DNA of 64,000 nucleotides from Alistipes sp. (lineage in GTDB: Bacteria > Bacteroidota > Bacteroidia > Bacteroidales > Rikenellaceae), in assembly GCA_017416915.1 (NCBI GenBank), contig JAFQAN010000016.1, positions 1 to 64,000 on the forward strand, read 5' to 3'. Under the pieces are notes generated by a model. The model saw only the letters and a program-made list of their open reading frames with translations, was not told where the DNA came from and ran no database searches. The position numbers were made by a program, and so were the translations under genes. Positions 7,922-26,800 of this stretch are shown piece by piece. How positions within the stretch are numbered: position 1 is the stretch's first letter; every line of letters begins with the position of its first letter.

Positions 7922-10261
7922 TTAGATATTGTAGCCGAAATCGGTTGTCTCGGTGCAACGCAGCTTAGCAGTATGCTCACCACACTGGATAGTGAACGTA
8001 CCCTCTTCGAGGTGCCACTTACCATCACGACCTACCATTGCCAACTCCTCGGCGTCGAGTTCGAACTCTACGGTACGGCTCTCGCCTGCTTGAAGCTCAA
8101 TCTTCGTGAAGTCGCGCAGACGGCGTGCGTCGGGAACGATTGATGCTACATCGTCGTTGATGAAGAGCAGTACGCTCTCTTTACCTGCGCGGTCGCCCGT
8201 GTTCTTAATATCTACCGCAATACGAATCTTGTCGCCTGCCTTGAACTCCTCGCCCTCGACAACACGAAGGTTGCTGTATGCGAAGGTGGTGTATGACAAA
8301 CCGTAGCCAAATGCCCACTGTGCTGAGACAACGGCGTTGTAGTCGTATGCACCCTCCATAGTGCCAACGCTCTCCGATACCTTGTGGTCGTAGGTGGTCA
8401 TAGCGTTAGAGTACTTCTGGTAGGTGTAGGGGAGTTTACCCGAGGGGTTTACCTTGCCATAGAGAATGTCTGCTACGGCAGCTGCGCCCTCCGTGCCAGG
8501 AAGGTAGGTGTGAAGCACACCCTTAACGTCATCTACGAACGACGATATGATACGACCGCGACCCTCGTTGAGAAGCAATACCACGGGCTTGCCCGTAGCG
8601 ATGAGAGCCTTGGCGAGTGCCTGCTGGTTGGGCGAAATCTCCATCTCGTTAAGGTTGCCAGGGGTCTCGCAGTATGAGTTCTCGCCGAGGCAGAGAACTA
8701 TAACATCAGAACCCTCCGAAGCCTTCACTGCACCCTCGATGTCGATGTTGCACTCGTCTGCATAGGTGCCGCCATCCTTATACTCAACACCTGCGTAGTA
8801 GGTTACGTTGTCGCCACCGATAGCCTTGATAGCGTCGAGCAACGTTACACCGTCGGGCAGTACCTTATCGACGATGTCGCCCTGCCAAGAGTAGCTCCAA
8901 CCGCCGCACAACGGACGCATACGGTCAGCGTTAGGACCTGCCACAAAAATCTTGCTGTCGGGGGCAAGAGGCAGTATGTTGTTCTCGTTTTTGAGCAACG
9001 TAATAGACTCGGCAGCAGCCTCGTAGCAAGCCTTGCGAATATCCTCGCCTTGGAACTTGGGATAGTCTTTGAGGTAGGTGTTGGGCGTGTCGATAAGCCC
9101 CAAACGCAACTTCATACGAATAACGCGGCGGGCAGCGTCGTTTATTCGCTCCTCCGACACCTTACCCTCCTTAACAAGCTCGATAAGCAGAGGACAGAAG
9201 TCCACGTCGTAGGGAATCATTGACATATCGACACCTGCATTAATCGAGATGCGGATAGCATCCTTGTAGTCGGTAGCAATCTTCTCACGCGTGTAGAGGT
9301 TTACAATATCCGACCAGTCGGTAACAATCATTCCGTCCCACTGTAAGCCCTCTTTGAGCCATACGGTAAGCAACTCATAGTCGGCGTGTGTGGGAACACC
9401 ATTTACCGATGCCGAGTTTACCATAATCGAGAGCGCACCAGCCTCGATAGCTGCCTTAAAGGGTGCAAAGTGCTTCTCACGAAGCTCCGAAATAGATACA
9501 TAGGCGGGGGTACGATCCTGACCCGAGTTGGTCATACCGTATGCCATATAGTGCTTGGGACACGATGCTATGTGATACTTGTCGATATGGTTGGGGTCTT
9601 CGCCCTGATAGCCGAGTACCATCTCGCGTGCCATCTCGGCAGAGAGGTATGCATCCTCCGAGAAGCTCTCCCATACGCGCGACCACGACGACTTACGACC
9701 GAGGTCGATGGTGGGCGAGTAGGTCCACGGAATGTTACTTGCGCGCACCTCGTATGCCGTCATCTCTGCCATATTGCGCACCAAAGCACGGTTGAACGAT
9801 GCTGCTCCGTTTACCTCCTGCGGGAAGAGGGGCGATGCCCAAGTGTAGGTGGCGCCGTGAATGGCGTCGATGCCGTAGAGCGTGGGAAGACCCGTGTGCT
9901 TTATCGACGCAGCGTTGATTTTCTCAATAACCTCGTTCCACTGTTCGGCGGTAAGAGCCTTGCCTGGGGCATTGAGTACCGAGCCGAACTTGTACTTTGC
10001 CGCAAGCTGGTCGAGTACATCCTCTTTGAGTACAAAAGCCTTGTCGTCGGCAACGCCGCTTATGCTGTTGCCCAACATATCGATACCGATCTCTGCCATC
10101 TGACCGACCTTCTCTTCAAGTGTCATCTTCGAGAGAATCTTCTCCACCTCGCGCTCAATCTTCTTGTCGGGCGCTATTGCTGGCTTACGCTCCTGAGCGG
10201 TAGCCGAAAGACCGATTACTGAAAGTAATGCAGACATAGCTAAAAGTTTGATAGTTTTCAT
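7922..10261 (-). CDS. bglX: Glycoside hydrolase family 3 beta-glucosidase (BglX-like)
   Basis: The 779-residue periplasmic enzyme has a Sec signal peptide ending near SATAQE (residue 24). The GH3 N-terminal barrel holds the KH pair in CPKHYMAYG (236-237) and the nucleophile Asp315 in MIVTDWSD. The C-terminal alpha/beta domain and a fibronectin III-like domain (from about 680) complete the BglX layout. It releases terminal beta-glucose or a related sugar from oligosaccharides. It is the first gene of a two-gene operon with GH2 and has its own -7 box at 10317-10324. No SusC/SusD pair is nearby, so this is not a complete polysaccharide utilisation locus. Confidence 0.93.
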   Translation of the reverse strand: MKTIKLLAMSALLSVIGLSATAQERKPAIAPDKKIEREVEKILSKMTLEEKVGQMAEIGIDMLGNSISGVADDKAFVLKEDVLDQLAAKYKFGSVLNAPGKALTAEQWNEVIEKINAASIKHTGLPTLYGIDAIHGATYTWASPLFPQEVNGAASFNRALVRNMAEMTAYEVRASNIPWTYSPTIDLGRKSSWSRVWESFSEDAYLSAEMAREMVLGYQGEDPNHIDKYHIASCPKHYMAYGMTNSGQDRTPAYVSISELREKHFAPFKAAIEAGALSIMVNSASVNGVPTHADYELLTVWLKEGLQWDGMIVTDWSDIVNLYTREKIATDYKDAIRISINAGVDMSMIPYDVDFCPLLIELVKEGKVSEERINDAARRVIRMKLRLGLIDTPNTYLKDYPKFQGEDIRKACYEAAAESITLLKNENNILPLAPDSKIFVAGPNADRMRPLCGGWSYSWQGDIVDKVLPDGVTLLDAIKAIGGDNVTYYAGVEYKDGGTYADECNIDIEGAVKASEGSDVIVLCLGENSYCETPGNLNEMEISPNQQALAKALIATGKPVVLLLNEGRGRIISSFVDDVKGVLHTYLPGTEGAAAVADILYGKVNPSGKLPYTYQKYSNAMTTYDHKVSESVGTMEGAYDYNAVVSAQWAFGYGLSYTTFAYSNLRVVEGEEFKAGDKIRIAVDIKNTGDRAGKESVLLFINDDVASIVPDARRLRDFTKIELQAGESRTVEFELDAEELAMVGRDGKWHLEEGTFTIQCGEHTAKLRCTETTDFGYNI

Positions 10262-24468: not shown

Positions 24469-25809
24469 ATGAAGATAGTTATTGCTGGTGCAGGAGATAT
24501 GGGTACGCACCTTGCCAAGATGCTTAGTGGTAACGGACACGATATTACGGTTGCCGATGTCGATCCTAAGGCGTTGGTCGAGGTGGGTAATCTTATGGAT
24601 GTCGTTACGGTGGAGGGCGATACTACGCAGTTCTCGGTGTTACGCAAGGCGGGGGCGCGCAAATGCGACCTCTTTATCGCTGTGCGCTCGGTAGAGAACG
24701 ACAATATCCTCTCGGCGGTAATGGCAAAACAGCTCGGTGCGCGCAAGGCCATCGCACGTGTCGATAGTAACGAGTATCTCGAACCCAATAGCAAGGAGGT
24801 CTTTATCGATATGGGCGTGGATTACCTATTCTATCCCGAGCAAATCGCCGCACGTGAGGTTATCAACCTTCTGGGCCATACCTCTTCGACCGAGTATGTC
24901 GAGTTTGCGGGTGGTAAGCTGTCGTTGGTGGCATTCCGCTTGGAGCTTACCTCTCCCCTGCTGGGTCGTGCGGTTATTGATGGCGACTATTACGACGAGG
25001 ACTTGGAGTACCGCACGGTGGCTATCGTACGTGGCTCTCGCACCATCATCCCCTCGGCCGATGACCGCTACGAGGAGGAGGATATGGTATATGTGATTAC
25101 GCGCAGCAATAACATCTCGAAGGTTGTCGAACTATCGGGACGCAGGGAGGAGGCAATACGCAATATGATGATTCTCGGTGGCTCGCGTATCGGTGTGCGT
25201 ATCGCCAATGAGTTGCAAGATGAGGTAAACATCAAGCTTGTCGATTACAATGCCGATAAGGCGTATCACCTTGCCGAGATACTCGACCGTACGCTTATCA
25301 TCAACGAGGATGGTCGCGATACCGAGGCGATGATGGAGGAGGACCTTGCGGGTATGGATGCCTTTGTGGCGGTTACGGGACGTAGCGAGACAAACATCCT
25401 TGCGGCAATGTTGGCGAAGCGTATGGGCGTAAAGCGTGTAATTGCCGAGGTGGAGAACATCAACTATATATCGTTGGCGGAGAGCATCGGTGTCGATACC
25501 ATCATCAACAAGAAGCTCGTTACGGCCTCCAACATCTTCCGCTTCACGATGACTACCGACGTGCAGGCTATCAAGTGCCTTACGGGCAGCCAGGCGGAGG
25601 TTATGGAGTTTATCGTCAAGCCCAACTCGCCCGCAACGAAGTCGCGCATACGCGACCTCGGTCTTCCCGATGATGCCGTTGTTGGCGGTGTTGTACGTGG
25701 CGACAGGGTGTTTATAGCGGTGGACGACACGCAGATAAACGCCTACGACCGTATAGTCGTGTTCACGATGCCCGACTCGGTTATGCGTGTTGCGGAGTTC
25801 TTCAACTAA
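24469..25809 (+). CDS. trkA: Potassium uptake regulator TrkA
   Basis: The 446-residue peripheral membrane protein gates the TrkH/KtrB K+ channel in response to nucleotides. It is a duplicated protein. An N-terminal Rossmann RCK_N domain (GAGDMGTHLAKML, residues 6-18) with an RCK_C domain (about 140-215) is followed by a second pair (GGSRIGVRIANEL near 235-247, and an RCK_C domain from about 370). The length is typical. The partner trkH usually follows, but here the next 380 nt hold two structured repeats and then a nucleoside kinase gene, so the channel must be encoded elsewhere. Confidence 0.95.
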   Translation: MKIVIAGAGDMGTHLAKMLSGNGHDITVADVDPKALVEVGNLMDVVTVEGDTTQFSVLRKAGARKCDLFIAVRSVENDNILSAVMAKQLGARKAIARVDSNEYLEPNSKEVFIDMGVDYLFYPEQIAAREVINLLGHTSSTEYVEFAGGKLSLVAFRLELTSPLLGRAVIDGDYYDEDLEYRTVAIVRGSRTIIPSADDRYEEEDMVYVITRSNNISKVVELSGRREEAIRNMMILGGSRIGVRIANELQDEVNIKLVDYNADKAYHLAEILDRTLIINEDGRDTEAMMEEDLAGMDAFVAVTGRSETNILAAMLAKRMGVKRVIAEVENINYISLAESIGVDTIINKKLVTASNIFRFTMTTDVQAIKCLTGSQAEVMEFIVKPNSPATKSRIRDLGLPDDAVVGGVVRGDRVFIAVDDTQINAYDRIVVFTMPDSVMRVAEFFN

Positions 25810-25944
25810 ATTTGTTGTGATAAGGGGTCATCTGCGGCACTACCCTCATCTGCCTGAATGGGGATGTACGCCAAGTACACCCCCCCCATCCAGTCAGCTT
25901 TCGGGATAGCACCACATCTGACGCCCTTCTGACAACAAATTTGG
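25808..25944. repeat. Foldback repeat element, copy 1
   Basis: Perfect 11-bp ends, AAATTTGTTGT (25808-25818) and ACAACAAATTT (25932-25942), enclose inner arms AAGGGGTCA (25822-25830) and TGACGCCCTT (25919-25928). A central hairpin has ATGGGG and CCCCAT around GTAC/GTAC (about 25858-25889). It begins at the trkA stop codon. A similar copy follows at 25964. No reading frame is shared cleanly by both copies, because an extra G in the G8 run shifts it. Confidence 0.7.
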
Positions 25945-25963
25945 CTCTTTGGTTCTTTGGTTC

Positions 25964-26095
25964 TTTGTTGTGATAAGGGGTCATCTACTGCCGCTAACGA
26001 ATTATCTCGTCAATGGGCAGTACGTCTAAGTACAGCCCATCGCCTCGAAATTCGCCGAGCGTTGTATCTGACACCCTTCTGACAACAAATTTGGC
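25964..26095. repeat. Foldback repeat element, copy 2
   Basis: It has the same plan as copy 1. The ends are TTTGTTGTGATAAGGGGTCA (25964-25983) and TGACACCCTT-CTG-ACAACAAA (26069-26089), with a central hairpin ATGGGC-A-GTAC/GTAC-A-GCCCAT (26013-26040). The central stem bases differ from copy 1, but pairing is kept. Copies 1 and 2 are separated by about 20 nt containing CTTTGGTTCTTTGGTTCTTT. Confidence 0.7.
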
Positions 26096-26191
26096 TTGCT
26101 GCTGTCCGACTGAGAACGACTGAGAAAAAGCAAGCGCGACGTAAAAGAAAACTACTAACAGGAGACGAACGAAATAAAATATTGATTGAAT

Positions 26192-26800
26192 ATGTATATA
26201 GCTATTGCGGGTAACATCGGTAGTGGTAAGACCACGCTTACCGAGATACTTACCAAACGCTACAATGCCAAAGCCTACTACGAAGATTTGGCAAACCCCT
26301 ACATCAGCGACTTTTATGAGGATATGAGCCGCTGGTCGTTCCAGTTCCAACTATGGTTTCTCGGCAGCCGTATCCAGCAGACGCTCGATATGCTTGCCGA
26401 CGGCTCGGAGAATGTCGTGCAGGACCGCACCATATACGAGGATGCGCACATCTTTGCCGATAACCTCCACCGTATGGGCTTTATGGCGAGTCGCGACTTC
26501 GGGACCTATATGAAGATATTTGATATACAGTCGAATATCATCCCTAAGCCCGATGTGCTGATATACCTCAAAGCCAGTGTGCCTACGCTTATATCGCAGA
26601 TACGTATGCGCGGTAGAGACTACGAGCAGAACATCGACGAGGAGTATCTGATGCGCCTAAACGACAAGTATAACCACTGGATAGAGAACATCTACGAGGG
26701 TAGGGTGTTAGTCGTTGATAAGGATGTTGATGACTTCGTCTCTAACCCCGAGGTTGTAGAGCGTATCTGCGCCGAGATAGAGCAAATTTGTAAAAAGTAG
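26192..26800 (+). CDS. Deoxynucleoside kinase (deoxyadenosine/deoxyguanosine kinase type)
   Basis: The product of about 202 residues phosphorylates deoxynucleosides for nucleotide salvage. I use the ATG at 26192. An in-frame TTG six bases earlier is less likely. The P-loop GNIGSGKTT is at residues 7-15. The ED motif (YYEDLANPYI) supplies the base for the 5'-hydroxyl, and DRTIYEDAHIFA (about 78-89) is the DRS-like motif. RMRGRDYEQNIDEEYL forms the lid. The length fits the dNK family. The rsmF-like gene follows by 6 nt. No promoter was found after the repeats. Confidence 0.9.
   Translation: MYIAIAGNIGSGKTTLTEILTKRYNAKAYYEDLANPYISDFYEDMSRWSFQFQLWFLGSRIQQTLDMLADGSENVVQDRTIYEDAHIFADNLHRMGFMASRDFGTYMKIFDIQSNIIPKPDVLIYLKASVPTLISQIRMRGRDYEQNIDEEYLMRLNDKYNHWIENIYEGRVLVVDKDVDDFVSNPEVVERICAEIEQICKK

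Follow-up and report, generated by a model that had tools for sequence, protein, structure and literature searches.

Integron attC sites, for example the VCRs of Vibrio, are hairpins similar in size to the units reported here; each sits behind a stop codon, antisense to the gene, with R boxes of consensus RYYYAAC / GTTRRRY at its ends. They are described as imperfect hairpins recognised by shape, in which a single strand matters and the folding strand is mostly the leading-strand template; in sedentary integrons the bottom strand of attC is the less stable one (PMC5371416, in excerpt). REP, REPIN and BIME elements are short palindromic units that occur in large numbers within a genome and form composite and mosaic groups (PMC2817692, in excerpt). 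The ERIC or IRU sequences of enterobacteria are palindromic, 127 bp long, co-transcribed, small and mobile, with an orientation that matters for their effect on mRNA, 7-bp TIRs, TA termini and a target duplication (PMC2229807, in excerpt). In the Bacteroidales, the BrickBuilt MITE of Porphyromonas gingivalis is intergenic with internal tandem short repeats; strain ATCC 33277 has 19 copies, 49-591 nt from coding sequences, with 23-nt repeats (PMC4596501, in excerpt). For Bacteroidetes, palindromic candidates for structured RNA have been named, including one of 132 bp, which are known to us by description rather than by sequence (PMC8040213, in excerpt).

The units reported here are likewise short, palindromic, many per genome and in composite groups, as are REP, REPIN and BIME elements. 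Set beside ERIC by description, they share the palindrome, the nearly equal length, the small size and the mobility; ERIC belongs to another phylum, and the excerpt of PMC2229807 describes no replication polarity for it. BrickBuilt, also of Bacteroidales, resembles the decamer/octamer region behind our arrays, whereas the excerpt of PMC4596501 describes neither a stop-codon junction nor a 126-nt foldback. No description of these elements was found in searches of an open-access library. To our knowledge, replication polarity and an exact stop-codon junction are no part of the definition of REP and, common as dispersed palindromic repeats are, we know of none that unites a stop-codon junction, a near-total replication-strand polarity and a pairing constraint on one strand.

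Two foldback units behind trkA

The window, that is the whole 64,000-nt stretch analysed, belongs to a genome of 2.0 Mb in 42 contigs that is 93% complete. A sequence-only reading of this stretch had noticed two tandem foldbacks of about 130 nt behind trkA (24469-25809). Both were confirmed as real, with lengths of 129 and 126 nt, and they carry the common 5′ arm TTTGTTGTGATAAGGGGTCA, the common 3′ arm ending ACAACAAA, and the stems ATGGGG/CCCCAT (copy 1) and ATGGGC/GCCCAT (copy 2) around a GTAC..GTAC core, as that reading had listed them. It had missed that the array starts 1 nt past the trkA stop codon and that the minus strand is the constrained one, and it had not noticed the family, the link to stop codons or the polarity with respect to replication. 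The features are given below, where plus or sense means the sense strand of trkA and the strand of each unit is the one under pairing constraint.

25807..25809, plus strand: TAA stop codon of trkA, with the array beginning 1 nt beyond
25811..25939, minus strand: foldback unit 1, 129 nt
25811..25818, plus strand: outer arm of unit 1, TTTGTTGT, partner at 25932-25939 (ACAACAAA); covarying across the family
25866..25878, plus strand: apical GTAC-loop-GTAC of unit 1; almost invariant within the genus, different in other families
25880..25887, plus strand: C8 run, the G8 run of the minus strand; adds 3 nt to unit 1 and shifts any reading frame
25940..25963, plus strand: 24-nt spacer between the units, TTTGGCTCTTTGGTTCTTTGGTTC
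25964..26089, minus strand: foldback unit 2, 126 nt, of a different subtype from unit 1
26107..26126, plus strand: the decamer CGACTGAGAA twice, a brief remnant of the tandem-decamer region found behind many other arrays of this genome

The arms of unit 1 reach out to 25808/25942. The frame-shifting G8 run in copy 1, also in the earlier reading, is thus the C8 at 25880-25887. Units 1 and 2 are 72% alike, and their starts are 153 nt apart, against 126-130 nt in 29 of the 39 neighbouring pairs of the window's genome. Compared with dinucleotide shuffles, the plus-strand folds gave z scores of −6.6 (unit 1) and −6.4 (unit 2) and the minus-strand folds −8.8 and −8.1; none of 200 shuffles folded as well in any of the four folds (two units, two strands). 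An Rfam scan gave no match above the gathering score at 25811-26089, and a further Rfam search gave one chance hit (E 3.6). Elsewhere in the window, the small SRP RNA of Bacteroidales (RF04183) lies at 1-106 on the minus strand.

The family and its constrained strand

A blast search with copy 1 found 48 places in the window's genome. The covariance model R1, built from 42 units, raised this to 150 places or more, of which three are cut at contig ends, in about 111 arrays; all 150 candidates scored were matches, out of 768 first-look candidates. The search in Alistipes and Bacteroidales that the earlier reading had proposed yielded a family, in this genome and in relatives. Weaker opposite-strand duplicates of one unit were omitted from the counts, as palindromes match both strands, together with a partial match (L042 15445-15499) and an edge-cut one (L044 1-84) whose whole unit was counted. 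In the fetched sequence of this genome, 48 units lie in 462 kb and 69 in 396 kb; they form the 117-unit set used below, from which the stability comparison took the 112 units of at least 115 nt. Among 80 arrays examined, 49 hold a single unit, 26 hold two, 4 hold three and 1 holds four, and different subtypes often stand side by side. The commonest unit classes are 122 to 129 nt long. Many contigs begin or end in or beside units (C14, C17, C21, C22, C28, C31, C39 and others), so the repeats probably fragment the assemblies of this genus.

R1 matched 14 of 25 genomes of the genus (the window's included, two with a single match) and none of 16 genomes of other genera. A subtype pattern was found in 24 stretches of GTDB r220 contigs; each title reads either Alistipes sp. 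or Rikenellaceae bacterium, and the Alistipes sp. titles name gut samples of cattle, yak, sheep, buffalo and deer. A minus-strand model, R2, matched 6 of 295 genomes of the order, namely the window's genome and five others that span four other families; in the alignments inspected, these distant relatives retain GUCAGAA, AGAUG and UUAUCAC in identical or similar form; their arms are unrelated and the apex differs. In a sample of the phylum, used to look beyond Bacteroidales, the match was to 1 of 395 genomes, the window's genome only. These searches scored 12 (order) and 8 (phylum) candidates per genome, at which weak or divergent families would escape. Phages, plasmids and viral contigs, searched with copy 1 or with one exact subtype pattern, gave no match.

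The compensatory changes noticed between the two copies extend to the 40 chosen units from 9 genomes in alignment A3. RNAalifold on the minus strand of A3 predicted 37 pairs, 27 of them with double-sided changes, at −45.7 kcal/mol. Paired cells amounted to 95.9% against 73.8% in shuffles, and the covariation score was 0.583 against 0.172 in shuffles and 0.05-0.11 with slid partners. Lack of covariation across homologous copies had been named beforehand as what would refute a structural element; 318 double-changed cells were found, against 101 in shuffles. The shuffles leave relatedness in place; still, single positions of helix 4 show GC, CG, AU and UA. The outer helix has 8 bp with 96.6% of its cells paired, that is, terminal inverted repeats are present. 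Outer, second and core helices covary, the internal loops CAG/AUC and AGAU/AGAU are nearly fixed, and the arm sequences vary freely. This fold is kept across Bacteroidales families.

The earlier reading had suggested that structure rather than coding is selected, and had set intact conserved frames in most copies as the opposite outcome. This view is borne out by the strong covariation, by the usual unit lengths of 122-129 nt and by the frames of 138 distinct units, since no one frame is open in the majority of them. A coding repeat of the RPE kind on the minus strand is scarcely credible. On the minus strand, 81 of 138 units have at least one frame open from end to end, compared with about 59 in mononucleotide shuffles, but the excess is equal on the plus strand (83/138). 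The best single frame is open in 59 units (minus) or 68 (plus), the usual lengths break the frame, and changes track base pairing.

The two strands differ in the kind of mismatch that their helices contain. On the sense strand, the 117 units of the window's genome have 402 A.C, 44 G.U and 428 other helix mismatches, and 30 units of eight relatives have 88 A.C and 4 G.U, with the bias of the same sign in each relative; the relatives' counts omit two units of the window's genome (L103) and a weak match (L109 3821, 33 bits). The minus strand of A3 has 132 G.U cells in 16 pairs against 8 A.C cells in 7 pairs, with 52 others. The strand count scored G.U and A.C alike, and its cells, drawn from related subtypes, are not independent events. 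An A.C mismatch of the sense strand becomes a G.U pair on the other strand, so the earlier reading had looked at the complement of the constrained strand, which is antisense to the gene. As read from A3, several sense-strand mismatches are G.U pairs of the minus strand, on which a tandem G.A/A.G motif is possible at AGAU/AGAU. Of 142 units, 139 fold more stably on the minus strand with DNA parameters and 129 do so with RNA parameters, so stability does not tell single-stranded DNA from RNA.

A model of plus-strand RNA was tried and dropped, since its RNAalifold consensus was weak (−16.5 kcal/mol and 23 pairs, from a unit set differing from A3) beside the −45.7 kcal/mol and 37 pairs of the minus strand. 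Mutation bias was rejected as the source of this difference in wobble between the strands. At 4-fold sites, genes assigned to the inferred leading strand have relatively much T and G, which means change from C to T on the sense strand; such a bias would put G.U on the sense strand, opposite to what is observed.

These counts bear on a REP-like mRNA element, a sense-strand hairpin in the 3′ UTR that would protect the mRNA or stall ribosomes at the stop codon. The REPs of E. coli near stop codons are a precedent, and the units do lie immediately behind stops. However, A.C is 9 times (window's genome) or 22 times (relatives) as frequent as G.U in the sense-strand helices, and in 129 of 142 units it is the sense strand that folds less stably. 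The wobble asymmetry disfavours such an element, which we regard as improbable.

Placement, polarity and mobility of the units

Around 80 arrays in 858 kb of the window's genome, genes were called by a codon-scoring script rather than a standard annotator. The upstream gene reads in the direction of the array in 70 cases and in the opposite direction in 9, with no call for 1. As many as 62 of the 70 arrays start within 19 nt of the same-direction stop codon (−13 to 19), 44 of them within 4 nt, and the other 8 lie farther away, up to 229 nt. At distances of −10 and −13 the stop of the gene lies inside the unit's own TGATAA-like stretch. Random placement within gaps would put 2.8 of 67 arrays at 0-4 nt; 42 of 67 were observed within 4 nt, a count that also takes in arrays overlapping the stop (10 of the 70). 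The same arrangement was seen in relatives, with genes called by the same script; there the upstream gene reads in the same direction in 34 of 39 arrays (opposite in 3, no call in 2) and 32 of these 34 arrays lie −10 to 13 nt from the stop. In other families, 11 of 13 loci (L179, which overlaps L171, being omitted) have a unit whose distance to the stop of a frame of 80 codons or more is −13 to 17 nt; at one locus this frame has just 91 codons.

Strand use was nearly uniform along contigs. The majority strand of their contig carries 146 of 150 units and 107 of 111 arrays, compared with a mean of 77 arrays and a maximum of 92 in shuffles. T-A skew at 4-fold sites was higher for genes on the sense strand of the element in all 20 contigs or stretches (14 contigs), and G-C skew agreed in 19 of 20, the exception being C42. 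On C10, one of two contigs with evenly mixed strands (the other being C6), the skew flips between two stretches in step with the units (1 unit in L101, 4 units in L102). With the leading strand inferred from 4-fold-site skew rather than from a mapped origin, 76 of 80 arrays in the window's genome lie on it. So do 36 of 39 arrays in relatives, where the call was the sum of G-C and T-A skews and 4 of the 39 assignments rest on weak calls; skews conflict on G003:C3 and G017:C6, G021:C55 (1 array) has no plus-strand genes and G022:C31 (3 arrays) has only 46 plus-strand sites. Convergent gaps, which hold 40 of the 80 arrays of the window's genome, offer one leading and one lagging stop each, and 38 of these 40 arrays lie at the stop of the leading gene. 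Another 27 of the 80 lie in same-direction gaps that contain no lagging gene. Where the upstream gene has the opposite direction (9/80), lagging-strand genes stand on both sides in 8, and the 4 lagging-strand arrays are still 0-7 nt from stop codons. Neither the stop-codon rule nor the polarity rule is absolute, since 9 of 80 arrays are off same-direction stops, 8 of 70 are more than 19 nt away and 4 of 80 are on the lagging strand.

For one lagging-strand exception, L054 (C20:129409-129535), what appears to be the same gene in G003 (L184) and G022 (L142) has units of other subtypes at its stop codon on the leading strand, which suggests a later inversion in the window's genome. On C14 (L086), a gene ending near 8396 on the inferred lagging strand has a bare stop, about 300 nt from an oppositely oriented array; its counterpart in G022 (L141) is filled.

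Near-identical units have unrelated flanks, and orthologous stops are empty or filled; the units therefore move as blocks of 126 nt, sharply bounded towards the gene. The earlier suggestion of a palindromic mobile unit is upheld by the same two observations. The window's genome has 195 unit pairs at least 96% identical, of which one is 100% identical with one member at a contig end, and unit 2 shares 99.2% identity with a unit of contig C33 that has unrelated flanks. On the gene side, the flanks cease to be alike where the unit ends (3.6 of 10 positions match in the first ten, 3.3 in the second). On the far side they often stay similar (6.7, then 5.7 matches), where a neighbouring unit or a decamer region may follow. 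In G011, three identical 125-nt units lie 0-1 nt behind the stops of three different genes. The trkA stop is filled, with different arms, in the window's genome, G004, G041, G011 and G003, and bare with short gaps in G021, G022 and G017, whose TrkA identity to the window's genome is above that of G003. No unit was seen at the other trkA loci read; of 30 loci, 8 were searched with the model and the rest read by eye over 420 nt (L120 is shorter). A second gene, which has the C-terminus MHFLFNV and which we take to be YchF-like, has a bare stop in the window's genome and RGIG6411; in G011 and SIG174 a unit begins 1 nt past its TAA. No target-site duplication was recognised by eye in the array flanks inspected.

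An autonomous copy, with a gene between close arrays, was looked for and rejected: genes between neighbouring arrays less than 3.3 kb apart read as housekeeping from their translations, and no transposase was recognised.

A double-stranded site or cruciform could act as a nucleoid site, which was the third suggestion of the sequence-only reading, as a segregation site or as a replication landmark of the KOPS type. Replication polarity does resemble that of chromosome-orienting motifs. Palindromes are also prone to arm-to-arm correction, and template switching between arms could give compensation in place of selection. The one-sided G.U/A.C pattern disfavours this reading, since a cruciform or double-stranded site is blind to the strand on which G.U falls. 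Arm correction would remove mismatched loops, which persist in units with different arms, and presence varies at orthologous stops. We consider it very improbable.

Possible handling of the units and repeats behind the arrays

Enzymes were searched for in incomplete MAGs, the window's assembly being 93% complete. Neither the window's genome nor any of 16 genomes of the genus (G000-G015) has a match to Y1 transposase (PF01797), which was found in 8 of 9 genomes from other families and in 5 of 14 controls; a RAYT/IS200 origin was rejected, and in this the units differ from REP with RAYT. No integron integrase (TIGR02249) reached more than 265 bits in these genomes, the best piece in the window's genome scoring 92 bits, and an integron origin was likewise rejected. 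The earlier statement that the elements resemble none that can be named holds against Rfam and, in the 16 genomes, against both enzymes.

Like attC, the units have a folding strand that is antisense to the gene and, by prediction and skew, on the leading-strand template. Unlike attC, they end in TTNNNGT...ACNNNAA without the RYYYAAC/GTTRRRY core (by eye in A3 and in A1, an alignment of 42 of 65 full-length units), they are scattered genome-wide rather than placed in one cassette array, and their apex is conserved within the genus where that of attC is variable. A stability difference between strands as large as theirs is not consistent among known attC sites in the excerpt of PMC5371416. By integrase and end boxes, the units are not attC.

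We tentatively favour the view, close to an even bet, that each unit is a non-autonomous mobile hairpin, recognised through its antisense strand when that is single and folded, with a logic like that of attC. An enzyme would recognise this strand by its shape, as integron integrase does with attC, and would copy units to gene ends, sparing coding sequence. In the orientation observed, the folding strand would be the leading-strand template. As this template is seldom single-stranded, insertions there would be stable; behind lagging-strand genes the folding strand would lie on the lagging-strand template and insertions would be lost. Handling of a folded single strand would thus give stop-codon targeting, polarity and strand-specific pairing from one logic. 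A selected RNA would explain the near-constant internal loops just as well.

The main rival is an antisense RNA function: a structured RNA at gene ends that would terminate, process or destabilise head-on transcripts before leading-strand genes, its copies spread by some mobile process and retained for function. We hold this unlikely, though a real contender. The earlier suggestion of an RNA element stands to this extent, with the strand concerned being the antisense one. G.U is the usual wobble of RNA (alignment columns 26-111 are G.U in 24 of 40 units and columns 51-86 in 32 of 40), units are flush with the gene border, and the arrangement recurs in other families. In the 40 convergent gaps the lagging gene would transcribe the minus strand, but the 27 same-direction gaps have no lagging gene to do so. 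At the window copies, no terminator-like site (a stem then a T run) occurs in 25700-26300, and a promoter match is at chance level with sigma-70 motifs, to which Bacteroidales promoters do not conform. Protection of genes gives no reason for lagging genes to be free of units, as in the 38 of 40 convergent arrays placed at the leading stop, and units come and go among sister species.

Copying through RNA would also account for a sharp junction, if a folded minus-strand RNA were reverse-transcribed from the nascent leading-strand 3′ end at a stop codon: the RNA 3′ end would make the junction and orientation would follow the fork. The sharp boundary at the stop, the variable other side and an orientation that fits a leading-strand primer agree with this, and reverse transcriptase (PF00078) is present in the unit-bearing G003, G006, G012 and G015. 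However, none was found in the unit-bearing window's genome, G004, G005, G008 and G011, on which grounds a retroelement origin was rejected, and the unit-free G002, G007, G009 and G014 have one too. RNA-mediated copying is thus hard to credit.

If single-strand handling by shape is the right mechanism, such recognition of sites would not be confined to integrons and IS200/IS605, and the rule that orients integron arrays, by which the folding strand is the leading-strand template, would hold genome-wide. The putative enzyme in uncultured Alistipes-like gut bacteria is a concrete target. A further reading, doubtful though possible, is that the units represent a new class of mobile nucleic acid, small hairpins that an undescribed enzyme handles by shape only, as folded single strands, behind the stops of leading-strand genes throughout the chromosome, attC-like without an integron. 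Their placement would come from that enzyme or from replication-dependent survival, and core genes would in principle be flanked by recombination sites. The count of G.U against A.C is itself a simple and general way to find the selected strand of any palindrome.

At C20:162222, C20:168400, C14:41317 and C9:9505, a 13-nt copy of the 5′ end of another unit (CTTGGTGTGATAG or CTTGGCGTGATAG) precedes the array, as though a unit had inserted behind the first 13 nt of one already there, or an older unit had been trimmed.

Many arrays are followed, in the same polarity, by tandem decamers (GCCWCGCAC.., CTGRGAAYG..), CCTGTGTTTTT and octamers (NGTCYCGT), and the second half of this composite has inverted decamers with AATCGCGCGCC; examples are on C25, C5 and C20 (loci L095, L041 and L056). 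In 598 kb, leading to lagging counts were 24:0 for the first decamer pair, 25:0 for AATCGCGCGCC, 180:28 for the octamer pair, 25:4 for CCTGNGTTTTT and 19:4 for GTTGGCGCGC. The count was only 146:91 for the second decamer taken singly, of which the composite contains copies in both directions. G004 shares the composite repeats at that position, and some other members of the genus have different short repeats.
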